A stretch of 36,882 nt of DNA, from positions 1-36,882 of IMG/VR virus record IMGVR_UViG_3300037225_000063; one strand, written 5' to 3'. Below are positions 5,108 to 36,514 of the stretch, in pieces (the first letter of the stretch is position 1; each line of letters begins with the position of its first letter). The stretch is from a virus. The notes below the pieces were generated by a model. That model made no database searches, was not told where the DNA came from, and saw only the letters and a list, made by a program, of their open reading frames with translations. The translations under genes and the position numbers were made by a program.

Positions 5108-5117
5108 TGGATTCCTT

Positions 5118-5354
5118 TCATGGATGGAGAAGTTTCAGGAACTCTACTCCCTTTGTGGCGAGGATGCTGGAAATCATTGGAAGGACGATAAGAAGAATCC
5201 ACCATGCCCCTTTCAGCTTATTGATGAGGGCTTTGATGGTCTCTAGGGTCTCCTTAATCTCCTTGAGATCGGATTTGATCGTGGAGTATTGGTTTTCGAG
5301 CGTTGCGACCCTCTCGCAAGTGTCGGTGTGGTCGGGGCATTGGTTCATAATCAT
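5118..5354 (-). CDS. XhlA-like coiled-coil/membrane protein
   Basis: The 78-residue protein has a heptad-type helix (VATLENQYSTIKSDLKEIKE, continuing to about residue 48) followed by one membrane helix near the C-terminus (AWWILLIVLPMISSILA). This soluble coiled coil plus C-terminal anchor is the layout of the haemolysin XhlA family, which works with holins, and is also seen in some inner-membrane spanins in reverse order. The start overlaps the stop of the secreted protein upstream by one base (TAATG), a classic termination-reinitiation arrangement. The fold is supported by sequence; a role in lysis is inferred from the holin-like neighbour. Confidence 0.62.
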   Translation of the reverse strand: MIMNQCPDHTDTCERVATLENQYSTIKSDLKEIKETLETIKALINKLKGAWWILLIVLPMISSILATKGVEFLKLLHP

Positions 5355-12829: not shown

Positions 12830-14158
12830 TTAAATGAACCCCAAATCTTCTAGCTTCGGAAGTTCCTCGTTCTGAAATTTTTCACCGATGTCAGTCCTGT
12901 ATTGCGGCGCACGGACCACGATCTCCCTCATGTCATCAACGCATTGCTCATTGGCGTCCTCGATGTCATCCTCGCAATGGGTCGAGGCAATTACATATTC
13001 GTAATAGTCTGCCACTCGGAAAAGCTTCTCCTCCTCATCCCATCGGATGTAGAGCGGGTGAAGATGGCCGTCAAAGAGCTTCTCGTGCTGGGGGATCTCC
13101 ACCGGCTGATCCTTGAATGACCCCTCATGGTTATCGCTGGTCGTTTCCTGCGGGTATTGGCCAGCTCCTAGCACGGTCACCACACCCCAAGCATCCTTCG
13201 TCTCGACCCCGCCCTGCTTGCCATCAATCAGGTCGGCAAAAAACTTTCCAGTCTCGGTCTCGAGCAGGTGAATTATCAGGCTCTGGGCCGGATAACCCTC
13301 CCGAGGCGTGAACTCGAACAGGTACGGATCGCCCGTTTCCTCAATAATGCCACAGTTCGCGTCAATGTTGATTACTACGTCTTTCGCCTCTTTCTTGAGA
13401 ATTGGAGTTAGCTTTTCGAGGGTCTGCTGGAACAGCTTGAGGTTGTCGGGGAACCGCATGACTGTCCCCATCTCGCCGGTGGTCAGGCCAGCGTCATCGT
13501 TGAGCTGCTTTTTATGCTCCCGGTTGACCTCTACGAGGATCGAGCCGTCATCCCGCCGCTTCCAGTCGTTCCCCATCCACCAGCCACTTGTGGCGAACTC
13601 CAGCCCCTGCACGGCCTCCTGTAACATGAAAGGGCAGTCGCCTTTGAGCTTGGCATATTCCTCGGCATCCTTCATCCATTCGAGTTGGCGGATGACATCG
13701 GATCCATCGTCCTCTTTCCCGCAAAAATTCCATGTTTTCGGCGCGTGGCCCATCTGCTTGAGAACCCATTGATCGGGATTTTCTTGGATGAACTTGATGG
13801 CTTCGTCCACATTCTTGACATGATGCGCGTTGGGGACTTTGATTCCCGCATCCTTCGCGACCTGATGCTGGAAATTCCTGTCGGTCTCGATCTTCTGCAT
13901 GAACGGATTGTTCCCGTAGCACTTGTACCCCATGCTCCGCAGCGCGGCCACGGACATCTCGTCCCCGCAGATGATGTACCCGTCCTTGCCGACCCACGAG
14001 ACCCCCGACATGATGTCAGGTGCTAGCTCGACCATGCCGAGCAGGTGTTCCTTGCCTTCTGGTTTCAGGGACAGGAACTGGACTTCGTTTCCTTCGAGCC
14101 GGAGACGCCATGCTAGAGCAGTCGCCATTCCCTCCGAGTCAAAGACGAGGAATCTCAT
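12830..14158 (-). CDS. PurD-like ATP-grasp ligase
   Basis: This 442-residue protein resembles phosphoribosylamine-glycine ligase in overall order: an N-terminal pre-ATP-grasp domain (MRFLVFDSEGMATALAWRLR), a linker with the Lys-containing nucleotide segment (DQWVLKQMGHAPKTWNF), then the ATP-grasp metal-binding core (VVINIDANCGIIEETGDPYL followed by FEFTPREGYPAQ), which parallels the EFN-R-GDPE motif of PurD. ATP-grasp enzymes join a carboxylate to an amine or thiol using ATP. It is the last gene of the glycosyltransferase block (4-base overlap upstream) and the nearest neighbour of the capsid gene. A role in building or attaching a modified sugar or amino acid on the virion, rather than purine synthesis, is inferred. 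No other purine gene is present. Confidence 0.78.
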   Translation of the reverse strand: MRFLVFDSEGMATALAWRLRLEGNEVQFLSLKPEGKEHLLGMVELAPDIMSGVSWVGKDGYIICGDEMSVAALRSMGYKCYGNNPFMQKIETDRNFQHQVAKDAGIKVPNAHHVKNVDEAIKFIQENPDQWVLKQMGHAPKTWNFCGKEDDGSDVIRQLEWMKDAEEYAKLKGDCPFMLQEAVQGLEFATSGWWMGNDWKRRDDGSILVEVNREHKKQLNDDAGLTTGEMGTVMRFPDNLKLFQQTLEKLTPILKKEAKDVVINIDANCGIIEETGDPYLFEFTPREGYPAQSLIIHLLETETGKFFADLIDGKQGGVETKDAWGVVTVLGAGQYPQETTSDNHEGSFKDQPVEIPQHEKLFDGHLHPLYIRWDEEEKLFRVADYYEYVIASTHCEDDIEDANEQCVDDMREIVVRAPQYRTDIGEKFQNEELPKLEDLGFI

Positions 14159-14901
14159 TTCGGCAATCTATGCTTACGGACCAGATTTATCAAGCTCTGA
14201 TCTTTGAATCCGTGGACGATTGCTGCCGGGCAGTCGAGGATGGACGGTTCCGCATCCTTTCCTTGATGACGGTAGGCGATGGAGTTGGTGTGCTGCCCCA
14301 TCGAGATAATTTTGAACCTCCAGATCCAATCCCACGCCACGGTGTCGCATCCGGTGATTTCCGGGAAGATCCGGGAAATCTGGTTGTCGTACATGGCCAC
14401 CCCATTGATGTGCATCCCGCTCTGCTCTCCATTCACGGAGAATTTATGTCCTACGATATTCACCTTCGGCGGCCGGTTTTTCCAGTCGTTAGCCAGATCC
14501 TTGAACCAGTCCTTTTTCATGGGAACGCAGTCGGCCTCCATCCAAAAGACGCATTTCGCGTGAGGCATGGTGTTCCCAACATGGATCATCGTGCTTCCGA
14601 ACATCCCGTTCGGGCCTGACGGCCATCCCTTGAATGGGGAGGTGCATCGGAATTCCTTCACGGAAAATTTCGGTGCTAGAATCTGGAGCATTTCCTTGTC
14701 CAGAGCGCAGTCCTGACGGTAGCAGAGCATGACCTGCGCGGCGGAGCCGACTGGATCGGTCTGGAGATCGGCCATCAGGCGGCAGACATCCTTTGCCATC
14801 GCCTTGTCCCCCTCCCAGAACCCGAGACAGATCAGGATGTCCCTGTCGGGACCGCCCGCGTAAAATGTCGTCCCATGAACCGGCGGAAGTCCTCTGTTCA
14901 T
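14155..14901 (-). CDS. Glycosyltransferase-like protein (GT-A type)
   Basis: The 248-residue protein has a Rossmann-like start (DRDILICLGFWEGDKAMAKD) and, in the middle, a hydrophobic strand running into WMEADCVPMKKDW, where EAD takes the place of the DxD metal-binding motif of GT-A enzymes. Later comes CDTVAWDWIWRFK, similar to the acceptor-side segment seen in other phage sugar transferases. It overlaps its neighbours on both sides by 4 bases, so it is part of a five-gene cassette with three more transferase-like genes and the ATP-grasp ligase. The sugar donor and the target are unknown. The variant DxD lowers certainty. Confidence 0.65.
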   Translation of the reverse strand: MNRGLPPVHGTTFYAGGPDRDILICLGFWEGDKAMAKDVCRLMADLQTDPVGSAAQVMLCYRQDCALDKEMLQILAPKFSVKEFRCTSPFKGWPSGPNGMFGSTMIHVGNTMPHAKCVFWMEADCVPMKKDWFKDLANDWKNRPPKVNIVGHKFSVNGEQSGMHINGVAMYDNQISRIFPEITGCDTVAWDWIWRFKIISMGQHTNSIAYRHQGKDAEPSILDCPAAIVHGFKDQSLINLVRKHRLPK

Positions 14902-15653
14902 TTTAGTTTCTCCACGAATTCACGGAATTTATTCTCCATCGGCCCCCAGCTCCAAGACTGGTGGATGATCTTGCCCTCCTGACCGATCTCGCCCTGCCAT
15001 GTCGGGCCTTCGGTGTCTGTGTTCTTGACGGTGAATCGGTTTGGAAAGTTGTCGATCTCGTAGCAGCCTATCACGCAGAACTCGGAAAAACGCGAGTCCC
15101 CGATTTTCAGGTGCTGGAAACAGGTTTTCCATAGCTGGGTTTTCTCGGCCTCTGCTAGAACCTTGCCATCAAGGGGGAGAGGCATACACCTCATGCACTC
15201 CCATCCGGGATCTTTCCCGAAAAGTTCCATGAGCAACTGTTTTCGGTATGACGGGTATCCGGATAAAATGAGAGTGTTAAGGTCGGTCCTCCAAAGGACG
15301 GGTCTATTGGCTGAAAAGAAATTCTTTTCGGAAAAGTCCTTCATGGCGATGCAATCGGAGTCCCAATTCCATGCTAGCTCCTCACCGAAGAATTTGTGAG
15401 CGTTCATCTTCACCCATTGCTGGCGCATATAGGGATTTGTGATAGCCATCGCTCCGGGCATCTTTTCCTCCACGGATACTAGCTCGAATCCGATCTTTTC
15501 GGTGTCCTTGCAGATGTCCTTGAAGGCAGGAATCTCTCCAGCCTCGGCCACCACGGTCCAGAAAACGTCCTCTTGGACGAAGTGGTTCACGGTTTTCACC
15601 GCGCAGCGCATCAGCTCCGCATCTTTAATGTAGGTTTTTGTAAAAAGATTCAT
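14898..15653 (-). CDS. Putative glycosyltransferase with DSD motif
   Basis: I set the start at the ATG at 15653 (MNLFTKTYIKDAELM), which has a strong ribosome binding site (GGAAGGAG, about 5 bases upstream). The frame is open further upstream, but that part only shadows the previous gene. The start lies 29 bases inside that gene. The 251-residue protein has strand-helix alternation and the metal-binding-type motif WNWDSDCIAM, resembling DUF6492-like GT-A proteins. A Cys pair (CMRCMP) follows in the middle. Its place between a clear family-2 transferase and another transferase-like gene supports a sugar-transfer role; donor and acceptor are unknown. Confidence 0.65.
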   Translation of the reverse strand: MNLFTKTYIKDAELMRCAVKTVNHFVQEDVFWTVVAEAGEIPAFKDICKDTEKIGFELVSVEEKMPGAMAITNPYMRQQWVKMNAHKFFGEELAWNWDSDCIAMKDFSEKNFFSANRPVLWRTDLNTLILSGYPSYRKQLLMELFGKDPGWECMRCMPLPLDGKVLAEAEKTQLWKTCFQHLKIGDSRFSEFCVIGCYEIDNFPNRFTVKNTDTEGPTWQGEIGQEGKIIHQSWSWGPMENKFREFVEKLK

Positions 15654-16467
15654 AACGCTCCTTCCATTTCTCGAAATCTTTGCCTCCGCACAAGTCGAAA
15701 ATAAGTTTCGACCTCCATTCATCCGCCAATTTCTCATCATCTACCGAAACGTAATCCCTGTACTTTTTCTCGAATCTGGCGTGTCTTTGGATTTTTTCTT
15801 CGGTGGTTGCCCTCGAAGCATAATTCCTTCCGTCACGATAGCATCGGGATTTTCCTACAACCCTCCCGATAAAACAGCATCCCCAGATGGACGGTATGGC
15901 GTGGTTGATAAAATAATCATGCTGCGGCCCGAGTTCCTCGGGATACCCTCTCAAATAATCCACGCAAGACCTTTTCCAGATAGCGGAAAATCCCGGAACA
16001 AAGCTTTTCCCCATGAAAAACATCTTTTGGAAATGAACCGGACCAATAATCCCCTGCTCTGGAGAGCATCCAATCATGGAATGATGGCTTCCATCATCCC
16101 AGATTCTCTCACAAATCGCATACGCTCCCCCGCAGTCAGTCCGCTGTATTTCCTGAATTGCCATTTTGAAGAAATCCAATTCCGTAAGGTAATCGTCAGA
16201 GGCGCATCCGATAATGAGGTCTCCCTTGCTCTTGGAATACCCCAAGTTAAAAGCTTCCGTCACTCCAATGTTTTTTTCCAAGAAAACGGGGGTGATTCTT
16301 TTGTCATTACCGCAAAAATCGCTGATAATTTCTTGGCTTCCATCAGTCGATCCATCGTCAACAATGATAAGTTCAAGATCCTGAAAGGATTGCCCAATAA
16401 CTCCGTTGATTGCCCCGGATATAAATTCTCCGTGATTGAAATTGGGCATGATTGCGGAGATTTTCAT
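15625..16467 (-). CDS. Family 2 glycosyltransferase
   Basis: The 280-residue protein is a textbook GT2: nucleotide-binding start MKISAIMPNFNHGEFI, the signature IIVDDGSTDGS at about 34-44, the NIGVTEAFNLGYSKSKGD helix, and the metal site CASDDYL at about 88-94. The catalytic-side segment near YLRGYPEELGPQHDYF follows. GT2 enzymes transfer a sugar from a nucleotide-sugar to a carbohydrate, lipid or protein. Without membrane helices it is cytoplasmic. It overlaps the upstream HTH-fusion gene by 4 bases and contains the start of the next gene. Its location in the head operon points to glycosylation of a virion protein, which is inferred. Confidence 0.92.
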   Translation of the reverse strand: MKISAIMPNFNHGEFISGAINGVIGQSFQDLELIIVDDGSTDGSQEIISDFCGNDKRITPVFLEKNIGVTEAFNLGYSKSKGDLIIGCASDDYLTELDFFKMAIQEIQRTDCGGAYAICERIWDDGSHHSMIGCSPEQGIIGPVHFQKMFFMGKSFVPGFSAIWKRSCVDYLRGYPEELGPQHDYFINHAIPSIWGCCFIGRVVGKSRCYRDGRNYASRATTEEKIQRHARFEKKYRDYVSVDDEKLADEWRSKLIFDLCGGKDFEKWKERYESFYKNLH

Positions 16468-17474
16468 ATTTTACTGCCCTTCTCCGGTAAACCACGGATC
16501 GCGGTCCCGACATGGCCGCATATCACACCAAGGTCTAAATATGATGGGTGTCCAGATTGAGCAGCTCGATAAGCAAAGCTCTCGTCCTCTCCCAACATTC
16601 GACCTTTCTGGATTGGAGTGAAAAATCCTGTTTCGTTTCCCGGTGCATCCGAAGACATCGTGTCAGGGAAAGTTTTAGCGACATCAATGAACACCTGACG
16701 ATGCACCGCAAGACAACCCGTTCCAACGAAATCAACAGCCGCAAGATTATCCGAAGGAATGGTGTGCAGAATCGGTTGAGAACCTCCAGCAATAAGCCTC
16801 CCGCCACCCCTTCGATCCCAGTAACATCCTCCGACAATGGTTTTTCCATGAGAGATCAACCTTTCGATGGTGTGGAGATTACCAAATTGGTTCGGAATGT
16901 CCATCCCCGTCTGGGTCGCGAAGATTCCCGAGTTTCCAAACGGGAAAATCATGTCCGAGTCCAGCCATATCGACCAAGTTGCTCCCGTTGCCAGAAACCG
17001 CTTCGCCAACTGGTTCCTAGAACGTGCGATCATGCTATCCGAGTGTCGATGCTCCAGCCGGATTCCCTGACGGTATTTCATGGCGAGAGCCATAAAGCAG
17101 GTGAAACACTCCCCCGGGAAAAACTGGTATGACGCAATGCACAGACAGACATCTCGCCCCTTCCATAATTCCTTCTTTTCATTCCACTCGGGAGGACAGT
17201 AGCTTACCTCTATAGCCCCATTCTCATCCTGCATGGCCCTGAATTGCTCCACGCTGGCCGCTGGAGCTTCGGAAGGAGCCGATGCTTGCTCTGGAGCTGG
17301 TGCTGGCGCAGGATCGCTCCAGATGTCGAGCATCTTCTGGCAGGTGACAAGGCCGGGCTTGGTCTTTCCGGCCTCGAATGACTTGATTGAGGCGACCGGA
17401 ACATCAAGCTGCTTCGCGACCTCGATGGGTCCAAGCTCTTTTAGCTTCTGCTGGAGTGTTTCGAGGAGGTTCAT
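16464..17474 (-). CDS. HTH domain fused to a glycosyltransferase
   Basis: The 336-residue protein has two parts. Residues 1-50 form a Cro/C1-like helix-turn-helix (GPIEVAKQLDVPVASIKSFE, then GKTKPG). An Ala/Pro linker follows (about 52-75). Residues about 105-336 are a GT-A-type transferase of the phage kind: SRNQLAKRFL before IWLDSDMIFP (DxD-like DSD at 172-174), GGCYWDRRGGG, FVGTGCLAVHR, and LGEDESFAYRA with a final GHVG. A DNA-binding domain on a sugar transferase is unusual and could mean an autoregulator, a nucleic-acid target or a recruitment domain. It overlaps the scaffold gene and the GT2 gene by 4 bases each. Confidence 0.8.
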   Translation of the reverse strand: MNLLETLQQKLKELGPIEVAKQLDVPVASIKSFEAGKTKPGLVTCQKMLDIWSDPAPAPAPEQASAPSEAPAASVEQFRAMQDENGAIEVSYCPPEWNEKKELWKGRDVCLCIASYQFFPGECFTCFMALAMKYRQGIRLEHRHSDSMIARSRNQLAKRFLATGATWSIWLDSDMIFPFGNSGIFATQTGMDIPNQFGNLHTIERLISHGKTIVGGCYWDRRGGGRLIAGGSQPILHTIPSDNLAAVDFVGTGCLAVHRQVFIDVAKTFPDTMSSDAPGNETGFFTPIQKGRMLGEDESFAYRAAQSGHPSYLDLGVICGHVGTAIRGLPEKGSKI

Positions 17475-22130: not shown

Positions 22131-23861
22131 ATGTCAACTGCTAGCATAGAAACGCCGGGCATGGCAACTCTCCTTGTTACCCCCGATCAACTCCGCGTCT
22201 ATGTTGCGATGGCGATGGCCGAAAAGAAATATCGGGTCGCCGCAAAACTCATCTGGCCCTTCCTGAAACAGAACGCTTGGACCGATAAAATATGGGATAA
22301 CTTGGAAAAGTATCAGTACAACTGCATCATGGGTCATGCTAGCGCGTCCAAGACCTTCACCTGCGCTGCTTTCTATCTCCTGAAATGGTGGGAAAGTCCT
22401 CACAACACGGCATTTATCGTCACCTCCGACACCATCGCCTCCATGAATCGCCGTATCTGGTCGGACATCAAGACCCTCTGGGGCAAGAGCCGCATACCGA
22501 TGCCGGGCGAGCTGATCGACTCCCGCCACATTATTCGGATCTCCAATCTGGATGACAAAAACGCAATCGCCGCAGTCGCCGCCGAATCCGATGACGCCCA
22601 GTCGAAGATCCAAGGCGTCCACACGGAGAACATCATCGTCCTGATTGACGAGGCCGACAACAAGTTTTCCAGATCCGTATGGGGAGCCATCTCCAACCTC
22701 GGTGCTAGCGGCAATCTCCATGTGACCGCGCTGGCGAATCCCGTGGATCGGAACGGGGATTTCGGTTCCCGCTGCGAGCCGGAGGACGGCTGGTCCTCCA
22801 TCGACCCAGAGAATGACATGGAGTGGGAGGGCTGCACGGGCTGGCACGTTCTGAGGCTGGACGGAATGAAGTCCCCGAATCTGGTGGCTGGCGAGGACTT
22901 GTACCCGTTCCTGCTCACGAACAAGGGCGTGGCCGACATCCGGCGCGAGAAAGGCGAGAATTCGCTGGAATGGTGGTGTTATGTGAGGGCATGGTATCCG
23001 CCCGAGGGAACTTCCAACTGCATCTTCACTCCCGACATTCTAGCACGGACCTCAAAGAAACTGGTTTGGAACACCGTCACAGAAAAGATCGCAGCGTGTG
23101 ATCCCGCCTTTGAGGGTGGTGATGATTGCGCTCTTGTGATTGGTTGCATGGGAAGGCTTGCGGATGACCCATCCAAGCTCGGCGTCCGAGTGGAGAAGCT
23201 CGTCAAGATCAAGCGACAGAAGCCGTCCGTGCCGATCACATTTGATTTCGGCTCCCAGATCGTCAACATCCTGCGTGAAGAAAAGATAAAGCCCGCTCAT
23301 TTCGGTATTGATAGCACAGGCAACGCGCTCGGGCTATCGGATTATATCAAGCACACCTTTTCCCCCGCGATCCACGCGATTTCATTCGGCGGGAAGCCCT
23401 CCCGGATGAAGCTGACCGCAGAGGACACCCAGATTGCATCCAGCAGGTTCGACAGATTTGTTTCCGAGCTTTGGTACTCGGCGCGCGAATGGATGCGGCT
23501 TGGGCTGATTGAGATGGCAGTCCAGAGCCGTGAACTCCAGCGTCAGCTCGAAGCTCGGACTTATGAGCTGCTGCCAAATTCCGCAAAGATTCGCATCGAA
23601 ACAAAAACGGAAATGAAAGACCGTGGATTGCCAAGTCCGGATTTTGGTGACGCGGTTTCGATCCTGATTCATGTCGCAAAGATTTCACTCAACTCGTCCC
23701 TTCCCTCGATTGGGACGGCGAAGGCCCGGATAAAGGACCGTCTGTCCGCTCTACGGAAGAAGGAATTTTCATATCGGGCTGATTATCAAGCGAAACATCA
23801 GTCTCCAGCAGACGATCAAGATTACCAAGTGAGCCAGCCTTATCGCGACATTGGGAGATGA
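22131..23861 (+). CDS. terL: Terminase large subunit
   Basis: The 576-residue protein is the DNA-packaging motor. Its N-terminal ATPase has the Walker A variant GHASASKT at 68-75 and Walker B IIVLIDEAD at 168-176. The C-terminal RNase H-like nuclease has its acidic residues in ACDPAFEGGDD (about 322-332), FGIDSTG (Asp394) and the late SPDFGDA motif. The start lacks a good ribosome binding site; Met11 is an alternative. It is the only late-type gene on the plus strand, divergent from the head operon. Its last 173 bases are also covered, antisense, by the gene at 23689-24456. No small subunit is fused. Confidence 0.95.
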   Translation: MSTASIETPGMATLLVTPDQLRVYVAMAMAEKKYRVAAKLIWPFLKQNAWTDKIWDNLEKYQYNCIMGHASASKTFTCAAFYLLKWWESPHNTAFIVTSDTIASMNRRIWSDIKTLWGKSRIPMPGELIDSRHIIRISNLDDKNAIAAVAAESDDAQSKIQGVHTENIIVLIDEADNKFSRSVWGAISNLGASGNLHVTALANPVDRNGDFGSRCEPEDGWSSIDPENDMEWEGCTGWHVLRLDGMKSPNLVAGEDLYPFLLTNKGVADIRREKGENSLEWWCYVRAWYPPEGTSNCIFTPDILARTSKKLVWNTVTEKIAACDPAFEGGDDCALVIGCMGRLADDPSKLGVRVEKLVKIKRQKPSVPITFDFGSQIVNILREEKIKPAHFGIDSTGNALGLSDYIKHTFSPAIHAISFGGKPSRMKLTAEDTQIASSRFDRFVSELWYSAREWMRLGLIEMAVQSRELQRQLEARTYELLPNSAKIRIETKTEMKDRGLPSPDFGDAVSILIHVAKISLNSSLPSIGTAKARIKDRLSALRKKEFSYRADYQAKHQSPADDQDYQVSQPYRDIGR

Positions 23862-25007: not shown

Positions 25008-25548
25008 AACTCCTCCTCCTCCCCAATTCTAATGCAGATGACGAATAGCCCTTGACATCTGAAACAGCAATCCAGTTGTCTGGGCCAGCTATCCGGCCAA
25101 TCAAGATGTTTCCCTGATCCTGTACCTGCTCATGGGGGGGGGCAAGTTTCTGGCAGGTTCCAGAAAGGCAAGCCTTGACAAGAGGAAAGAGGGATGTGCG
25201 GGTCGGGAGCGGGTGTGAGGCGGGGTCAAGTATCCGTGTAAAGCTGCCCGATCCAGAGTACTGCCTGGTACGGGGGTCAAAAACCCCAGCCACTCGCCGC
25301 CAGCTCCCCGCACCAGCCCTCCTCTTGACTTTGCTCCGCAAAGCTCTTGACATGCGCCAGCACCAGCGGAGGAGGTCTTGCTCAGGTTCTGGGGCAGGCT
25401 GTCAAGGGAAGATTGTCAATAAGTGCTAGAACGGCGTTTCTTAAAACCCGCGTTTTCGGACACTTTGAACCAAAAGCAAATGTCAAATTTACCCCAGAAA
25501 CGCCATTCCACCCCGTTTTTGCCAGCTTATCAAGGCATGAAACAGGCT
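25008..25548. other. Gene-free stretch with clustered CTTGAC boxes
   Basis: I see no convincing gene here; open frames are short and have poor composition. Instead CTTGAC occurs at 25051, 25174, 25324 and 25346 on the plus strand and at 25225 and 25401 on the minus strand, far more often than chance would give in about 360 bases. Between the third and fourth boxes is a small perfect hairpin (CTTTGC-TCC-GCAAAG, 25329-25343). None of the boxes has a good -10 partner, so they look like protein-binding sites rather than promoters. Confidence 0.5.
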
Positions 25549-25669
25549 GCTAGAAAGGTAACCGATACCTTACCGATACCTTTGGCTAAGGTAACCGATA
25601 CCTTACGGTAAGGTAACCGATACGTTAGCCTAAGGTAACCGATACCTTACCGATACGTTACCGTAACGT
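25549..25669. repeat. Tandem array of 11-bp units (iteron-like)
   Basis: Eleven consecutive 11-bp units run without a gap. The main unit is AACCGATACCT or its variant TACCGATACGT. It is interleaved with units ending in AAGGT, such as TTGGCTAAGGT and TAGCCTAAGGT. The core ACCGATA appears six times, at 25561, 25572, 25594, 25616, 25638 and 25649, always 11 or 22 bases apart, so every copy faces the same side of the helix. No gene covers it convincingly. This is the form expected of a replication origin, partition site or operator bound by a cooperative protein. Confidence 0.8.
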
Positions 25670-25688
25670 ACAAGAACCGGACTGGATA

Positions 25689-25740
25689 AGGATAAGGACA
25701 GGATAAGGACTAGATAAGGACAAGGCTAGAGCTAGAGCTA
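25689..25740. repeat. Second 11-bp tandem block and GAGCTA repeats
   Basis: Three adjoining 11-mers (AGGATAAGGAC twice, then TAGATAAGGAC) fill 25689-25721. They are followed by AGGCTA and two overlapping GAGCTA hexamers ending in GCTAGC at 25737. The unit differs from the array just upstream but keeps the same 11-bp step, so the two blocks probably form one locus. The purine-rich strand bias (GGATAAGGA) could ease local melting. Confidence 0.7.
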
Positions 25741-26274
25741 GCGCAAGGGCTTGCAGGGCAGGGCTTGAGAGGGCAGGCTGCTAGTGCTGGATGACGAGGC
25801 GGGGGGCGAGGCCGGGCCGACCTCCCCCAACTCCGGCCTGCCAACCTTGCCCTTGCCGTCTCGACAAGACCCGCCCAACTTGCCCTGCCGGATTACAGGA
25901 GCTTGACCAGACAGAAGCCTGATTGGATCAAGCCGGAGGATATTGCGCTGCGCTGACTGAATATTACCATCCCGTGAAATCGCCGAGGTGCTCGCCCGAC
26001 CAACCCGCCTCCCAGTTTGTAGGGTTTCCCCGCCGAGGGCTTGTGCTCTGGTTTGGCATGGGACTTGAATGACAGCTTTCGCGCTAGGATGACTTATAGC
26101 GCGTTTTGATTGAGTGAAGTTTTTGGTTCAAGCCGCCTCCCCGCTATCCCGATATCCCCGAAACGGTTTTAGGGTATTTAAAGAGCTTTTCCAGTCTTTC
26201 GTCTCTCTCTTATATAGTCAACTTTGTCAATTTTTATCACGTTTATTTATTTTTAATTTTCTTTCACTTTTCTC
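25741..26274. other. Gene-free stretch: GC-rich repeats then T-rich leader
   Basis: No gene is convincing here. The left part has direct repeats of AGGGCTTG and GGCAGG and an inverted repeat AGGCCGG/CCGGCCT around 25812-25843, giving strong possible secondary structure. The right part from about 26185 becomes T-rich (TTTATTTATTTTTAATTTTC), the lowest-stability DNA in the window, directly before the early promoter. Together with the 11-bp arrays this resembles an origin with a melting region, which is inferred. Confidence 0.45.
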
Positions 26275-26303
26275 TTGCATTGTTTGCTCTTTGCGCTTAT
26301 CTT
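26275..26303 (+). promoter_or_regulatory. Early promoter (TTGCAT-17-TATCTT)
   Basis: A -35 box TTGCAT (26275-26280) and a -10 box TATCTT (26298-26303) are 17 bases apart, upstream of the duplicated leader and the Ala-rich protein gene. The same -35 box is used at 30363 and the same -10 box at the capsid promoter. It lies at the border between the gene-free locus and the rightward early operon. Promoter activity is inferred from the consensus match and position. Confidence 0.6.
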
Positions 26304-26343
26304 GCGTGTACAAGATCAATTTCCCCTCTGTAGCATGAGGGGT

Positions 26344-26387
26344 ACAACACAACCAACATAACCCACAGGAACCCGAAAAATTATGAA
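26344..26387 (+). repeat. 44-bp direct repeat, copy 1 (gene leader and start codon)
   Basis: A 44-base sequence beginning ACAACACAACCAACATAACC and ending in ATGAA is present here and again, base for base, at 27053-27096. Each copy contains the ribosome binding region (CACAGGAACC) and the ATG of the following gene. The two genes therefore have identical translation leaders, here for the Ala-rich protein. Confidence 0.9.
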
Positions 26388-26985
26388 GATCACACTGAAG
26401 GCTTTGCAGAAACTCGGAGCGTGCACGGACGGCATTGCTTGGTTCGCCGCGCAATCCGAAAACAACGGCCGGAAGGTCGTCGAAAAACTCCTCGCGGAGG
26501 GCCGGGCGAATTGGGCCAACTGGTTGGTGGCCCGGCTGCTGGGGAAGTCGGGGAAAATTGCTTATGCACGGTTCGCTGCCTCCCGCGCCGCCGCCAACGC
26601 CTCCTCCGACTATGCCTCCGCCGCCAACGCCGCCGCCGCCGCCGCCGCCAACGCCGCCGCCGCCGCCAACGCCGCCTCCGCCGCCAACGCCGCCGCCGCC
26701 AACGCCGCCAACGCCGCCCGTGCCTCCTATGCCGCCGCCAATGCCGCCCGTGCCTCCTATTCCGCCGCCGCCGCCGCCGCCGCCGCCCATGCCGCCGCCC
26801 ATGCCGCCCGTGCCTCCTATGCCGCCGCCGATGCCGCCGATGCCTCCTATGCCGCCAACGCCGCCGCCTACGCCGCCAACGCCGCCGCCGTCTACGCCGC
26901 CTACGCCGCCCCCTACGCCAAAGGCGCTTACGAAACAGCCCTCGAAAGGATCGTGCGTCACGGTCTGGGGCTGCTGAAAGCCTAA
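26383..26985 (+). CDS. Ala-rich repeat protein
   Basis: The 200-residue protein has a folded N-terminal domain (about 1-70) with LQKLGACTDGIAWF and ANWANWLVARLLGK. This pattern resembles small phage proteins with a GAC..G..WF start that are often annotated only as putative immunity protein. Residues about 71-175 are an almost pure Ala helix broken by Asn, Ser, Tyr, Arg and His, with a recurring ARASYAA unit. The C-terminus is an amphipathic helix (YETALERIVRHGLGLLKA). The DNA is a GCC-rich repeat that can slip. It is the first early gene and shares its leader with the AAA+ gene. Function unknown. Confidence 0.75.
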   Translation: MKITLKALQKLGACTDGIAWFAAQSENNGRKVVEKLLAEGRANWANWLVARLLGKSGKIAYARFAASRAAANASSDYASAANAAAAAAANAAAAANAASAANAAAANAANAARASYAAANAARASYSAAAAAAAAHAAAHAARASYAAADAADASYAANAAAYAANAAAVYAAYAAPYAKGAYETALERIVRHGLGLLKA

Positions 26986-27052: not shown

Positions 27053-27096
27053 ACAACACAACCAACATAACCCACAGGAACCCGAAAAATTATGAA
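27053..27096 (+). repeat. 44-bp direct repeat, copy 2 (gene leader and start codon)
   Basis: This is an exact second copy of the leader at 26344-26387, placed before the AAA+ ATPase gene and including its ATG. No copy of the TTGCAT promoter precedes it, so only the translation leader was duplicated. The perfect match suggests a recent duplication, gene conversion, or strong selection on the leader. Confidence 0.9.
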
Positions 27097-28165
27097 CTAC
27101 AACGAAATGACGGTGAGCGAGCTCCGCAAGCTTGTCACCGAACGCAAGCTCGGTGCTGGCGTCTGGCGTGTGAGCGCGAGCAAGGCAGACTTGATTCTCG
27201 CGCTTGAAACCGGCAATGTCCCCGATGCCGAACCCACCCCGCCCCGCACCGGCAATCTTGCCGAAACGCTGGCAACCGCAATCCGCGAATTCCTCCCCGA
27301 GGGCACCGTGAACGAGGAGAAGGTCCGGGAGATTGTATCCGATGAATTAGGACGCCGTGGAGCGTTGAAAATTGAACTTCAGATTGCCGAACTTCCCCCC
27401 GTTGACGTTTCAGAGGATCATTTCCTCCTTCCCTTGGTGCTAGCTTGTGTCCATAACAAAATCCCCGTTTACCTCGTTGGCCCGGCCGGATCCGGCAAGA
27501 CGCACTTGGCAAAGCGCATTGCGAAAATGCTCCAGATGGAATACTCCGACATTTCAGTTTGTGGACAGACGAGCGAGTACAGCCTGCGCGGTTACATGGA
27601 CGCCCAAGGACGTTATGTCTCCACTGGTTTCCGCACCCGCTACGAGCAAGGCGGGGTTTTTTTGCTGGACGAAGCCGATGCAGGAAATCCAAACGTGTTG
27701 GCCGTCCTGAATTCCGGCACCGCAAACGGACATATGAGCTTCCCCGATGGACTCATTGCCAAGCACGACAACTTCCGCTTGATTGCTGCTGGCAACACCT
27801 ACGGCACCGGCGCAAACGCGCAGTATGTCGGAAGGAATCCACTGGACGCTGCAACCCTTGACCGCTTTGCGTTTATCCAGTTTCCGATTGACCCGAGCCT
27901 TGAGGGCCGGTTAATCGGTGTTGACGTTCCCAAACCCGACTTTGACATATCCGAAGGCGGAACGATGGACGGCAAAGCATGGATCGAGCGGGTTCAGGCT
28001 CTCCGGGAAAACGCGCAACGTCATGGTGTGAAAGCGATTTTCTCACCCCGCGCCACAATCTACGGAACCCTCCTATTGTCGTCTGGTGTTGGAATCCGGC
28101 ACGTTGAAAATATGCTTCTACGCAAGGGACTGGATGAATCGACTTGGACCAAGTTGCAATCTTAA
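27092..28165 (+). CDS. MoxR/CobS-type AAA+ ATPase with SAP-like N-terminus
   Basis: The 357-residue protein begins with a SAP/Rho-N-like helix pair (MTVSELRKLVTERKL, then SKADLILALE). From about residue 100 it is an AAA+ ATPase of the MoxR/CobS/CbbQ type: Walker A GPAGSGKT at 130-137, the YSLRGYMD and GRYVSTGF loops, Walker B VFLLDEADAG at 189-198, sensor segment AAGNTYGTGA, and an Arg-containing LDAATLDRFAF. Such ATPases remodel or insert cofactors into partner proteins and usually pair with a vWA-domain protein. The next gene, 15 bases on, looks like such a partner. The SAP-like part may bind DNA. Confidence 0.88.
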   Translation: MNYNEMTVSELRKLVTERKLGAGVWRVSASKADLILALETGNVPDAEPTPPRTGNLAETLATAIREFLPEGTVNEEKVREIVSDELGRRGALKIELQIAELPPVDVSEDHFLLPLVLACVHNKIPVYLVGPAGSGKTHLAKRIAKMLQMEYSDISVCGQTSEYSLRGYMDAQGRYVSTGFRTRYEQGGVFLLDEADAGNPNVLAVLNSGTANGHMSFPDGLIAKHDNFRLIAAGNTYGTGANAQYVGRNPLDAATLDRFAFIQFPIDPSLEGRLIGVDVPKPDFDISEGGTMDGKAWIERVQALRENAQRHGVKAIFSPRATIYGTLLLSSGVGIRHVENMLLRKGLDESTWTKLQS

Positions 28166-28180
28166 ACCCGAGGATTTTAT

Positions 28181-29317
28181 ATGGCATGGAAAACCACCAA
28201 ACCCAAGCAGAATCAACAGTGTTGTAAATGCGGTTGCGTTATTGTCGCCCACCAACCGGCTTGGTATGCAACCAGATCGAAGCTATATATCTGCACGTCT
28301 TGCTCACCCCAACGCACCCCCGCCCCGGATGCCCCGCAACCGTCCCCGGATGGCTCTCCGGCACGCCCGGAGAAGGTTCCCCACTACGCGGGAAGCAAGG
28401 AGTATCAGCAGCTTGAAAACGTCCCAAACTCGGCTTGGAACTGGAAAGAATATCCCAGACCAAGCAACCCGGCGAAGCCCTTCAAAATCGCTGAATCATA
28501 CGTTGACTTTGACACCTTTGCCCGTATCGTGCAAGGCCGTCCCGCCCACTACACCGGCGCAAGCCGATCCCGGCGGATCGCCGGGGCCGACTGGGACTTG
28601 CTTGCCGGTTTTGGCGGAGCGGTCAACATGATGTTGCATGGCTGGCCCGAGGGCCGAGAGTTTGCATCCCGCATGGCTGGCAAGCTTGGAGACATATCCG
28701 GGCGGGTTGTCCGGTTTAAGACGGTGATGGACGTTGCCGGTTTTGCTCCGGACGTAGGAGTGTTTTGCGCCGGAGCGCCGGATTGTATGTTTCATTACGA
28801 GACCCACGAAGCCGAGGCGAAAGCACAAGCTAGCATTGTCAGGGTTTGCGTGAACATTTCCGCAAGTGGCGGTGTTCCAGCGGAAGCCCTTGCAGTAAAA
28901 GGCTTGGCCGTCTCAACCCTCGTTGAAGCCCTCCAGACCGCCGGAAAATCGGTAGAATTGACAGTTTGTGAAGGATGTTTATCCTCTCGAGATGGAGACG
29001 GTTACCAATGGTTTTTAACATTGAAAGAAGCGGATGCCGTCATGGAATCAGACCGACTAGCCTACTTTCTTGGGCATCCCGCTGTACTCCGCCGTCTTGG
29101 ATTTGCCTACACCGAGAACGCTCCGAAAGCTTTCGGGGGCGTCTTGGAGGTTCATTCCTCTTACGGAACCCCGCGCGAAACCTGGGGAGGAAAGCCCGGG
29201 GACATCCATGTCGGACACAACCACTTGCTCGAAACCAACTGGAAAAACATGGACGTTGTTCGAAAGTGGATCACAGACCAGCTTACAGCCCAAGGAGTGA
29301 CACTTGAGGGGGTTTGA
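28181..29317 (+). CDS. Zinc-ribbon plus vWA-like protein, probable AAA+ partner
   Basis: The 378-residue protein opens with a zinc ribbon (CCKCGC at 14-19, CTSC at 38-41) and a Pro-rich linker. The rest resembles the DUF7192/vWA-like partners of phage MoxR ATPases. Most telling is the strand-helix RVCVNISASGG followed by KGLAVSTLVEALQTAGKSVE, the vWA layout, with NISAS at 225-229 in place of the metal-binding DxSxS. The first Asp is thus replaced and metal binding may be lost. It follows the ATPase by 15 bases. Family and pairing are known; the substrate is unknown. Confidence 0.72.
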   Translation: MAWKTTKPKQNQQCCKCGCVIVAHQPAWYATRSKLYICTSCSPQRTPAPDAPQPSPDGSPARPEKVPHYAGSKEYQQLENVPNSAWNWKEYPRPSNPAKPFKIAESYVDFDTFARIVQGRPAHYTGASRSRRIAGADWDLLAGFGGAVNMMLHGWPEGREFASRMAGKLGDISGRVVRFKTVMDVAGFAPDVGVFCAGAPDCMFHYETHEAEAKAQASIVRVCVNISASGGVPAEALAVKGLAVSTLVEALQTAGKSVELTVCEGCLSSRDGDGYQWFLTLKEADAVMESDRLAYFLGHPAVLRRLGFAYTENAPKAFGGVLEVHSSYGTPRETWGGKPGDIHVGHNHLLETNWKNMDVVRKWITDQLTAQGVTLEGV

Positions 29318-31360: not shown

Positions 31361-31597
31361 ATGAACCAATTTTGGAAAATGCTTGAGGAGATTGAAAATG
31401 CACACCTTTCCGACTGCGAACGGGTGCAACTCGCCTTTGCGTTGCTTGGAGAAATCCACGACAACCACAAGGACGAGGAGAGCTACGACATGGCTCTCCG
31501 CGCTCTGACGGCTTTCCAAAAAAAACTCAAAGAGAAGGAAGAAAAAAATGCAAGCATTAACAAAAAGACAGACCGCCTCGCATTGGTATCTCGCTGA
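31361..31597 (+). CDS. Small helical hypothetical protein
   Basis: The 78-residue protein is wholly helical and charged (MNQFWKMLEEIENAHLSD; LKEKEEKNASINKKTD). It starts one base after the OB-fold gene and overlaps the nuclease gene by 50 bases in another frame. The nuclease has its own ribosome binding site inside this gene. No family recognised; position suggests an accessory of the recombination module. Confidence 0.55.
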   Translation: MNQFWKMLEEIENAHLSDCERVQLAFALLGEIHDNHKDEESYDMALRALTAFQKKLKEKEEKNASINKKTDRLALVSR

Positions 31598-32366
31598 CGG
31601 ATCGCCGTTTTACGAGGTTCCAAGCAAGTCCAAGCCCGGCCAGATGCGTAAGGCCACGCTAGCCGATGCCCGGATAGTGGGCGCGTTGCCCTCCGTGGGA
31701 GGAATCAAGGGAGTGATCGACAAGCCCGGCCTGCGCGGGTGGTTTGCGGATACGATCATCCATTCCGCGCTCACCCTTCCAAGAAACGCCGGGGAGGTAG
31801 ATGATGACTTCGCCGTTCGGATCGCTGCGGACGCCGACACGGTTCGAGAGAACGCGATGGAAACTGGGATCGCCCTGCACGACCTAGCTCAGCAATATCT
31901 CCAAAACGAAAAGATCGGTCAGGCGGATGACAGGATTCTAGCTTTGTTCGCCCCTCTCAAAAAGTGGATTGACGAAAATGTAGAGCAGTCAATCCTCGTG
32001 GAAAAGAGCATGGGTTCAAGAGTGCTGGGATATGGTGGCCGCATGGATGCCATCCTGCGCCTGCGCGGTCAAGACCTGCTGCTCGTGTCGGACTTCAAGT
32101 CCCAAGGAGTCAAGCCCGGCAAGAAGGCCACGTTCTACGAGGACGACTGGCCCTTGCAGCTTGTCGCCTATCGCGAGCTTGCCAAACTCCAGCATGATGT
32201 TGAGGGTCAAGAGTTGGGCCTGATGTCGGTGGTGGTGAACACAACCAGCCCCACTCCGATTGAAACGAAAATCTGGAGCGAGCCTGAAAAATATCTGGAA
32301 GCGTTCAATCACGCTTTCGGCCTCTGGCGGTACATCAACAACTTTGACCCAAGGTCAAACGCTTGA
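31548..32366 (+). CDS. PD-(D/E)XK nuclease (RecB/Cas4-type)
   Basis: The 272-residue protein contains the ordered motifs of RecB-family exonucleases: a His in GIALHDLAQQY (His111), an Asp in GYGGRMDAIL (Asp167), the catalytic pair LLVSDFKSQG (Asp182 and Lys184), and the QxxxY motif LQLVAYRE (Gln204, Tyr208). Such enzymes resect or process DNA ends in phage recombination and replication. The start at 31548 has a strong AAGGAAG ribosome binding site 8 bases before it. No Cys cluster is present, so it lacks the Cas4 iron-sulphur site. It is followed by the HNH-like gene with a stop/start overlap. Confidence 0.88.
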   Translation: MQALTKRQTASHWYLADGSPFYEVPSKSKPGQMRKATLADARIVGALPSVGGIKGVIDKPGLRGWFADTIIHSALTLPRNAGEVDDDFAVRIAADADTVRENAMETGIALHDLAQQYLQNEKIGQADDRILALFAPLKKWIDENVEQSILVEKSMGSRVLGYGGRMDAILRLRGQDLLLVSDFKSQGVKPGKKATFYEDDWPLQLVAYRELAKLQHDVEGQELGLMSVVVNTTSPTPIETKIWSEPEKYLEAFNHAFGLWRYINNFDPRSNA

Positions 32367-34767: not shown

Positions 34768-34979
34768 AAAGACTCAATCGAAAAGACTTATCAAGCGGAA
34801 TCATGGCTTCCTGCCTCTGTGGGAATCCTGCTAGAAGGTGGAAATGGGGCGGATGGGTTTGTCCTCGCTGCGCCAAAATCGAGAACAAGCTCTCCCATGA
34901 CTGGAGCTTTCACAAGCAAATCTATGGCGACCTCCGTCACGAGGCCGGTCAGGCCAGTCAGGCCGGGAGGTTGGCATGA
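34764..34979 (+). CDS. Small zinc-ribbon protein
   Basis: The 71-residue protein contains CLCGNPARRWKWGGWVCPRC, a typical four-Cys zinc ribbon (CxC and CxxC). It overlaps the resolvase-like gene upstream and the initiator gene downstream by 4 bases each, so it belongs to the replication operon. The C-terminus is a Gln/Ala-rich tail. The ribbon may bind DNA or a replication partner. No named family. Confidence 0.68.
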   Translation: MKRLNRKDLSSGIMASCLCGNPARRWKWGGWVCPRCAKIENKLSHDWSFHKQIYGDLRHEAGQASQAGRLA

Positions 34980-35722
34980 AACGATTCACCGAAGCTGAAA
35001 AATGGCGTGATGGCTGGTTCTCCGAGCTAGAAGCGCATCACAAGCTTCTCTGGCTCTGGCTCTGCGACAGGTGCGACCCGGCCGGGGTGGTGGACATTTC
35101 ATGGAAGGTCGCCTCATTCGAGACCGGCATGAAGCTGGCTGCGGAGGATCTTGTTGCCCTCAAAAGCAAGGTGGAACCGCTTCCCTCTGGAAAGGTGCTG
35201 ATCCCGGGATTCATTCCGTTCCAGTATCCAAACCTCTCCATCGACTGCAAGCCCCATAAAGCCGTGTTTGCGGCATTGGAAAAGCATGGCCTTCTGGAAA
35301 GGTTTGCCAAAGGTAAGCCAAAGGCAACCGAAACCCTTGAGGAAGGTAACGGTAACCTTCCAGAACCAGAAAAGAATAAGGGAAATCCAAAAAAGGGAAA
35401 GGTCCATGCTTGGCCTCCAGCCCAACTCCCAGAGGAAATCTGGGATGCCATCCAGAGGCTTAACGCTCCATTCCATCGGCGGGAGGAGACGCCTTGGACC
35501 GAGAAGGAACTCAAGGCGATCAAACTGCTCTCCGAGCGTCCTAGCTTCGCCGAGGAGCTGGCCTTGATCGAGACCCGCTACAAGACGGGAGGCCAGTACC
35601 TGCGTCAGGACATCCAGACCCTGCTCAACAACTGGTGTGGAGAAGTGGACCGCGCAAGAAACACCAAGAACGGACCCGCTCCAGCATCGGAATGGGCAGA
35701 CCCTGAACCAATCAGAATGTAA
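34976..35722 (+). CDS. Replication initiator / replisome organiser protein
   Basis: The 248-residue protein begins with a winged-helix segment (KRFTEAEKWRDGWFSELEAH and HKLLWLWLCDRCDPAGVVDI), the style of phage replisome organisers and DnaD/O-type initiators. A Lys/Glu/Asn-rich flexible linker follows (about 108-145), then a helical C-terminal domain (WTEKELKAIKLLSERPSFAE) that would recruit the helicase loader encoded next, 6 bases on. The linker's DNA carries 11-bp-phased repeats (35298-35362), like the origin inside lambda O. The function is inferred from fold style and neighbour. Confidence 0.75.
   Translation: MKRFTEAEKWRDGWFSELEAHHKLLWLWLCDRCDPAGVVDISWKVASFETGMKLAAEDLVALKSKVEPLPSGKVLIPGFIPFQYPNLSIDCKPHKAVFAALEKHGLLERFAKGKPKATETLEEGNGNLPEPEKNKGNPKKGKVHAWPPAQLPEEIWDAIQRLNAPFHRREETPWTEKELKAIKLLSERPSFAEELALIETRYKTGGQYLRQDIQTLLNNWCGEVDRARNTKNGPAPASEWADPEPIRM
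35298..35362 (+). repeat. 11-bp-phased repeats inside the initiator gene (candidate origin)
   Basis: Consecutive 11-mers AAAGGTTTGCC (35298), AAAGGTAAGCC (35309) and AAAGGCAACCG (35320) are followed in register by AAACCCTTGAG (35331) and GAAGGTAACGG (35342). GGAAGGT and ACCTTCC form an inverted repeat at 35341-35361. A purine-rich, A-tract segment follows (to about 35400). Iterons plus an A-rich stretch within the initiator gene is the plan of the lambda origin. The words AAGGTAA and CAACCG recall the intergenic array at 25549. Confidence 0.6.
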
Positions 35723-35728
35723 AAATTT

Positions 35729-36514
35729 ATGAACGAAAACCCGCAAATTGACGATACCGTTACCGAGCCTGTGTACGACCTCGGACCGACCCCCGCGCCG
35801 GTGCAGGCTCAAGCACCAGCTCCACCTCCAGAGCCTGAACCCGTGAAGTGCAGGATCTGCGAAGCTAGCATACCGCCATACCAGCTCAAGCTCTACAACG
35901 AGGCTCTCTGTTCGGCGCATCTGTCGATCAAGCTGATGAGAGAGAGCGCGGCGAGGGACGGGGACCGAAGCTGGGAGGAACGGAGGATTCGATGGAAAGA
36001 ACTCTGCCCGGAACAATACCGTGACAATGACGTTAAGCGGATTCAGTTGGCGAGGTACGAGGCCGTGACATCATGGAAGGTGAACCCGCAGGGTCTGCTC
36101 TGTATGGGGGCGTCCCAACTCGGAAAGACCACGAGCTGCTGGAAACTGCTGGAGAGTCTTTACATCAATGAAGGGATCAAGTTTGAGGCGGTAACGGAAG
36201 CGGAGTTTTCCAATCGACTCTCTCGGTCATTTCGGGATTCATCGGCGGGAGCTTGGCTATCGAGGCTCTGTAAGGTGCCGGTGCTTTTCTTTGACGACAT
36301 TGGACATTCGGCCTCCACGAGCAAGCATCTGGAGGATCTGTTTTTTATCGTGGAGACGAGGACGGCATGGAAAAGGCCCATCATCGCCACGACCCAATAC
36401 ACCCCCAATGAGCTGATTGACGCTAGCGGGATGGGTGGGAAGAAAACCATTCTAGCAATCCTGAACCGACTGAAACGTTCATGCAAAATCGTTCAATTCT
36501 ATGAGTATAAATGA
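35729..36514 (+). CDS. DnaC/IstB-like helicase loader
   Basis: The 261-residue protein has a Pro/Ala/Gln-rich N-terminus (about 1-38), a zinc knuckle (CRIC at 41-44 and CSAH at 61-64), and an AAA+ core with Walker A GASQLGKTT at 127-135 and Walker B VLFFDDIGH at 185-193. Sensor segment PIIATTQYTPNEL and a final Arg-containing LNRLKRS follow. Loaders of this type place the replicative helicase at the origin with help from an initiator. The initiator-like gene lies directly upstream. The zinc knuckle is also seen in other phage loaders. Confidence 0.88.
   Translation: MNENPQIDDTVTEPVYDLGPTPAPVQAQAPAPPPEPEPVKCRICEASIPPYQLKLYNEALCSAHLSIKLMRESAARDGDRSWEERRIRWKELCPEQYRDNDVKRIQLARYEAVTSWKVNPQGLLCMGASQLGKTTSCWKLLESLYINEGIKFEAVTEAEFSNRLSRSFRDSSAGAWLSRLCKVPVLFFDDIGHSASTSKHLEDLFFIVETRTAWKRPIIATTQYTPNELIDASGMGGKKTILAILNRLKRSCKIVQFYEYK

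Follow-up and report, generated by a model that had tools for sequence, protein, structure and literature searches.

An array of eleven short hexamers, spaced at exactly 11 bp in a locus without genes, is probably (we put the chance at about 78%) a cluster of origin-type binding sites, or iterons, of the replication initiator that the phage itself encodes, the predicted product of gene 34976. The array lies in a window of 36,882 nucleotides, by which we mean the whole stretch of viral DNA analysed (IMG/VR record IMGVR_UViG_3300037225_000063), and the contig may be incomplete. As the same word at the same 11-bp spacing is found inside the initiator gene, both here and in dozens of distant phages, the array is very probably a landing site of the initiator, and judged from its sequence this phage appears to have two sites with its replication-origin signal. 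The array, its twin, the register and word kept in relatives, and the initiator family are all read from the sequences themselves.

An 11-bp array in a gene-free locus

The following features define the locus.

25008..26382, no strand: locus without genes, bounded by the last ORF on the terminase side and the first of the early ORFs
25555..25670, no strand: main array; eleven AAGGTA/TACCTT hexamers, each starting exactly 11 bp after the one before and separated by 5 bp, usually ACCGA
25671..25724, + strand: purine-rich AGGATAAGGAC repeats, 3 copies of 11 bp, directly after the main array
25725..25741, no strand: short GCTAGA repeat after the AGGATAAGGAC units
26200..26262, no strand: least stable and most A+T-rich DNA of the window, with 84% A+T in 50 bp at 26210; the array is some 540 bp away

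A preliminary description of this DNA had reported a strict 11-bp repeat array in a locus without genes, and both observations are borne out. The hexamers start at 25555, 25566, 25577, 25588, 25599, 25610, 25621, 25632, 25643, 25654, and 25665 with no slip, and five of the six reading frames across them are open for only 8-38 amino acids, the sixth for 62. Self-similarity of the array at 11 and 22 bp is far above chance, with scores of 57 at lag 11 (maximum of 300 shuffles, 40) and 64 at lag 22 over 88 bp (maximum of 300 shuffles, 43). The core ACCGATA, said to recur every 11 or 22 bases, indeed occurs six times in the array, at 25561, 25572, 25594, 25616, 25638, and 25649 (intervals of 11, 22, 22, 22, and 11), and once elsewhere in the window, at 22281, and the three 11-mers of a different word that were said to follow are the AGGATAAGGAC units (3.1 copies with period 11 at 25689-25722).

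The order of the hexamers is AAGGTA, TACCTT, TACCTT, AAGGTA, TACCTT, AAGGTA, TACGTT, AAGGTA, TACCTT, TACGTT, and AACGTA. Read in this single register, as hexamers with 5-bp spacers, what had been taken for two alternating unit types is one word in two orientations (AAGGTA/TACCTT, with the variants TACGTT and AACGTA), and the idea of two binding proteins is not supported. The further proposal that all binding faces lie on one side of the helix holds only approximately, since 11 bp is close to one turn but, at 10.5 bp per turn, each step drifts by about 17 degrees. Because the hexamers alternate in orientation, the array strand also folds well (z -6.2), and with the fold explained in this way we set aside a hairpin or cruciform role. 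No nucleotide match was found in phage records, and an Rfam search returned sub-threshold matches only.

The gene-free array has no A+T-rich DNA immediately beside it, which counts against a working origin at this place. The A+T-rich DNA at 26200..26262 is a possible unwinding element or promoter region, and within it there is one promoter-like site, at 26224-26253, which scores at chance level. This surrounding bears on an unlikely alternative, that the array is no origin but a regulatory operator, whose main use would be control of early transcription or titration of the initiator, with the initiator itself or a different regulator bound to it. Plasmid initiators commonly autoregulate, and the position upstream of the early operon and the lack of an abutting A+T-rich element would suit an operator. 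The array is, however, some 550-700 bp away from where the early promoter probably lies, a region whose sole promoter-like site is the chance-level one, and dozens of relatives carry the same repeats in the middle of the initiator gene, followed by A+T-rich or purine-rich DNA, an arrangement that fits an origin and does not fit an operator.

A twin array inside the initiator gene

Elsewhere in the window, further features are of interest.

31548..32366, + strand: PD-(D/E)XK exonuclease gene
34976..35722, + strand: gene for the replication initiator or replisome organizer, with a winged-helix-like N-domain (residues 1-112), a disordered linker (114-144), and a helical C-domain
35299..35359, + strand: second, in-gene array of six hexamers (AAGGTT, AAGGTA, AAGGCA, AACCCT, AAGGTA, AACCTT) in the same 11-bp register
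35360..35400, + strand: A/G-rich DNA that follows the in-gene array, contains AGAACC..ATAAGG, and aligns with the gene-free locus
35729..36514, + strand: gene for a DnaC-like helicase loader (phrog_50, 2.8e-14), the next gene after 34976

A scan for six-unit chains shows the stretch at 35299-35359 to be the sole other 11-bp hexamer chain in the 36.9-kb window; it scores 39.6 against a window mean of -31.6 (sd 4.8), with the next unrelated place at -1.0, and among all periods from 8 to 31 the period of 11 scores best there. Its spacers include ACCGA and ACGGT, and the linker of the gene holds 8 matching pairs at 11 bp. With the window's own hexamer, none of 5000 synonymous-codon shuffles of gene 34976 reached the score of this stretch. 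The two arrays, which are 9.7 kb apart, align over 92 bp, past the repeats and including AGAACC and ATAAGG, with a score of 59 versus at most 26 in 338 other comparisons. When the window is searched instead with the heptamer AAGGGTA, a word taken from relatives and not from the window, 35299 and 25555 are tied as its two best places; against synonymous shuffles, AAGGGTA alone is marginal for the in-gene copy (0.064), so that a strong score for this copy depends on the window's own word, and of the 28 genes scored with AAGGGTA eight others fall at or below 0.014. The A+T content after the in-gene site is moderate (60%). A turning point of GC skew had been proposed as a check, but the cumulative minimum lies near 30 kb, and cumulative skew over the window has no turn at either the 25555 or the 35299 array.

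The preliminary description had named the product of 34976 as a protein to suspect, and its own gene does hold the same word in the same register. The main array had also been offered as an origin, a partition site, or a master operator, and of these three roles the evidence favours origin-type initiator-binding sites over the other two. A parC-type centromere, with 11-bp direct repeats bound by a ParR-like protein to segregate a plasmid-like prophage, is the least probable of the alternatives considered. The parC of R1 consists of 11-bp repeats in helical register, a likeness in its favour, but Pfam scans of the early proteins found no ParM, ParR, or ParA family (divergent small repressors may escape such scans), and the twin array is inside a replication initiator gene and not beside a par operon. 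Together with its conservation in other initiators, the in-gene twin argues against operator and centromere, and equally against the array being a relic, to each of which we give low weight.

The initiator and its family

An AlphaFold2 model of the 34976 product has a confident N-domain of winged-helix type (1-112), in which the KRFT-TEKW pattern is present, and its disordered linker (114-144) lies over the in-gene repeats. Neither Pfam nor PHROG models matched this product itself, and a Foldseek search of the model against the PDB gave no significant match; among the predicted viral structures closest to it are DnaD-like and replisome organizer proteins. Scans with the terminase, AAA+, initiator, and loader as single proteins found no relatives, whereas alignment-based scans succeeded. 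One relative is in a named phage, the cyanophage Pan5, and a search with an alignment that includes it recovered 341 relatives in IMG/VR, the detection of which relies on peptide patterns and one HMM built in this analysis. Among members of the family there are PHROG matches to replication initiation, replisome organizer, O-like, and DnaD-like proteins, and the neighbouring gene in relatives encodes a DnaC-like loader (L228) or a DnaB-like helicase (G018).

The 11-bp register is a property of this family. Matching 7-mers spaced by 11 bp occur in the linker of 34 of 38 distinct initiator genes, where synonymous shuffles predict 10.7, and those spaced by 22 bp in 19 (5.7 expected); the 12- and 18-bp spacings to which Lys-Asp repeats give rise are about as common as expected (29 vs 28.0 and 28 vs 25.1). 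The commonest family word, AAGGGTA/TACCCTT, is one base longer than the AAGGTA/TACCTT of the window, and in most of the family contigs tested a whole-contig scan with AAGGGTA ranks the initiator-gene site first. In the linker of L146, four copies of AAGGGTA and one of TACCCTT keep the register. The linker of L228, which comes from an Elusimicrobiaceae genome, holds AAGGGTA and TACCCTT in alternation, eight units in all and in register, with A+T-rich DNA and then the DnaC-like gene after them; the alternation is the same as in the main array of the window. The preliminary description had looked to relatives for an array that keeps its register, and the 11-bp register is indeed kept, but in most relatives the array is found inside the initiator gene only, with an intergenic copy in few lineages.

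Arrays outside the initiator gene

To find arrays by DNA alone, a pattern of three alternating units was searched in 2.9 million viral contigs. Of the 54 viral loci that it gave, 24 lie inside initiator ORFs and about 19 in a single unrelated, conserved gene of 487 aa; the others lie elsewhere. The 487-aa gene (L240, L241, L243, L244, and about 15 more), which has no PHROG match, carries AGGGTA-N4-TACCCT-N6-AGGGTA at its start; this is probably a coding coincidence in one lineage, and these loci were set aside as such. A direct search of viral contigs for AAGGTAN5TACCTTN5AAGGTA gave four hits that were judged on reading to be chance. Among contigs longer than 20 kb with an array outside an initiator ORF, five of six carry the initiator family elsewhere, compared with 0 of 88 control loci (800 kb); three of the five belong to one lineage, so these amount to about three independent cases.

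One relative, G018 (a 44.7-kb contig), has both an in-gene array, at 41180, and an intergenic one near 5108-5168, upstream of the terminase, flanked by small ORFs, and with the same word in the same register; its initiator is 37% identical to the 34976 product over its length. In G031, G032, G037, and G035 the initiator linker is without repeats and the array is found only outside the gene, and within the lineage of the first three the length of the array differs by exactly one 11-bp unit. From the in-gene, outside-only, and double cases we conclude that the element can occupy the gene, a non-gene locus, or both, with its register kept. In another contig, G034, an intergenic alternating AGGGTA/TACCCT array (L270, positions 1-260) is followed directly by strongly A+T-rich DNA and lies 33 kb from a distant initiator homologue, and it is a good candidate for a stand-alone origin.

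These cases form a series, in which the repeats usually occupy linker codons of the initiator gene, are at both places in the window and G018, and are outside only in the G031/G032/G037 lineage and G035. We tentatively suggest, at somewhat less than even odds, that the gene-free array of the window is a second copy of the origin segment that no longer has to code for protein, an origin in transit, in which the (GATAAG)n stretch is functional origin DNA. After the in-gene repeats of L147, L134, and L140 there is a (GATAAG)n stretch with the same words as the AGGATAAGGAC stretch of the window; what looks there like a coded KDKDK linker would be functional origin DNA, because here it is non-coding and beside the same repeats. 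The gene-free purine repeats match L147 with a score of 38 (shuffles, at most 28), and the in-gene DNA of L134 aligns with the gene-free array through the repeats into GGATAAGGATAAGGA with a score of 40 (shuffled mean 17.9, maximum 38). A frame just upstream of the array gives PVFASLSRH, which resembles the last part of the initiator N-domain; its profile match, which was noticed after the fact, ranks about sixth among distinct places of the window outside the gene, and is no more than suggestive of a remnant of the initiator gene. With the trace this weak, a strong claim that the locus is a pseudogene was dropped.

The same traces could be explained if the array had no function, being either a decayed duplicate of the origin segment of the initiator gene or a spontaneous minisatellite, and both the PVFASLSRH-like residues and the (GATAAG)n repeats, which code for the KDKDK linker in relatives, are in keeping with this. 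We consider it very improbable, as the gene-free copy is longer and cleaner than the in-gene one, its exact register across 11 units with varied spacers is not what a recent tandem duplication or a relic in decay would show, and intergenic arrays recur in unrelated lineages, in one of which a difference in length amounts to exactly one 11-bp unit.

Comparison with known systems

Initiator-type arrays both in the gene and in gene-free DNA are an arrangement known from the Bacillus phage SPP1, which has two origins of similar make-up, oriL in the initiator gene 38 and oriR in an intergenic part of the late region, about 12-13 kb apart; gp38 (G38P) binds direct repeats of both, gp39 is the loader, and a fork stalled by gp38 bound at oriR is the proposed trigger of a switch to concatemer synthesis (PMC6316719, PMC3485210). 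The window likewise has repeats inside the initiator gene (35299-35359), a second cluster of the same repeats in distant non-coding DNA (25555-25670, 9.7 kb away here as against 12-13 kb), and a helicase loader gene (35729-36514) that adjoins the initiator gene. The likeness is one of layout, and the repeat word, the 11-bp alternating inverted register, and the sequence of the initiator may be unrelated to those of SPP1; unlike SPP1, the gene-free copy here is the fuller one and has no abutting A+T-rich element. It is this reproduced layout of in-gene repeats, distant gene-free repeats, neighbouring loader, and an exonuclease gene that leads us to read the array as initiator-binding origin DNA.

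Phage lambda has iterons and then A+T-rich DNA inside its O initiator gene, between the initiator domains, and L228 and L146 share this order; lambda has four longer iterons at one site, whereas the arrays here have 6-8 hexamers at 11 bp and are joined by an intergenic array. Iterons of plasmids are usually direct repeats of 17-22 bp outside the gene. The repeated, predicted initiator-binding sites near the initiator gene are like iteron plasmid origins, but here a single hexamer is used in both orientations at 11 bp. Unlike at R1 parC, no par genes were found among the early proteins scanned, and the same word lies within a replication initiator gene.

Other features of the window

An AAA+ (phrog_249) and DUF7192 gene pair, at 27092-29317 in the window, is common to many unrelated phages, in which it is just downstream of a gene-free region rich in phage-specific repeated words (z 4-15); no such regions were seen at 44 control loci of other AAA+ genes. 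These regions are as follows.

L008: 1626-3608
L009: 1-1900 and 4198-4942
L011: 2779-3666
L015: 961-1649
L018: 1516-2265
L029: 2662-3319
L038: 3528-4181
L040: 4385-4724
L045: 3116-4367

In L011 the words are 16-bp palindromes of the type TAGGA..TCCTA, spaced mostly by 29-31 bp. That these repeats belong to the same system as the array was rejected, as those phages are without an initiator of the 34976 type, and their words have no second cluster elsewhere save in one nearby case.

An exact 44-bp duplicate leader, ACAACACAACCAACATAACCCACAGGAACCCGAAAAATTATGAA, which includes the start codon context, is present at 26344-26387 and 27053-27096, where it precedes an Ala-rich ORF and the AAA+ gene 27092, respectively. 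The former, 26383-26985, is the first early ORF and encodes an Ala/Asn/Tyr-rich repeat protein (AAYAANAAA type) with 9-, 30-, and 60-bp tandem repeats and no Pfam match. Among the structural genes, 12830-17474 holds glycosyltransferase-like and ATP-grasp-like genes as judged by eye from the translations, with a weak glycosyltransferase PHROG for 16464 only.

A model for the doubled element

We infer the binding, the unwinding, and the role of the gene-free copy, be it second origin, fork barrier, or regulator, along the following lines. The initiator would bind AAGGTA/TACCTT pairs via its winged-helix-like N-domain, and the 11-bp spacing would stack its protomers along the DNA into one nucleoprotein complex, which may open the DNA and, by way of the DnaC-like loader 35729, bring in the replicative helicase. 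The element would thus be doubled, with a degenerate copy inside the initiator gene and a fuller, gene-free copy 9.7 kb away, and by analogy with SPP1 the latter might act as a second origin, as a barrier with bound protein that turns theta replication into concatemer synthesis, or as both. The exonuclease 31548 is a possible partner for recombination-dependent replication.

On this account, the array gains a predicted binder in the form of a named protein and a consensus of AAGG(G)TA / TACC(C)TT every 11 bp. The family-wide rule, as seen in 34 of 38 initiator genes, could be used to locate origins in uncultured phages by sequence alone. The natural series of phages with the repeats in the gene only, at both places, or outside only could be used to probe the function of a second origin like SPP1 oriR, and also to ask whether the low-complexity linkers of initiators serve the protein or the origin DNA that they encode.
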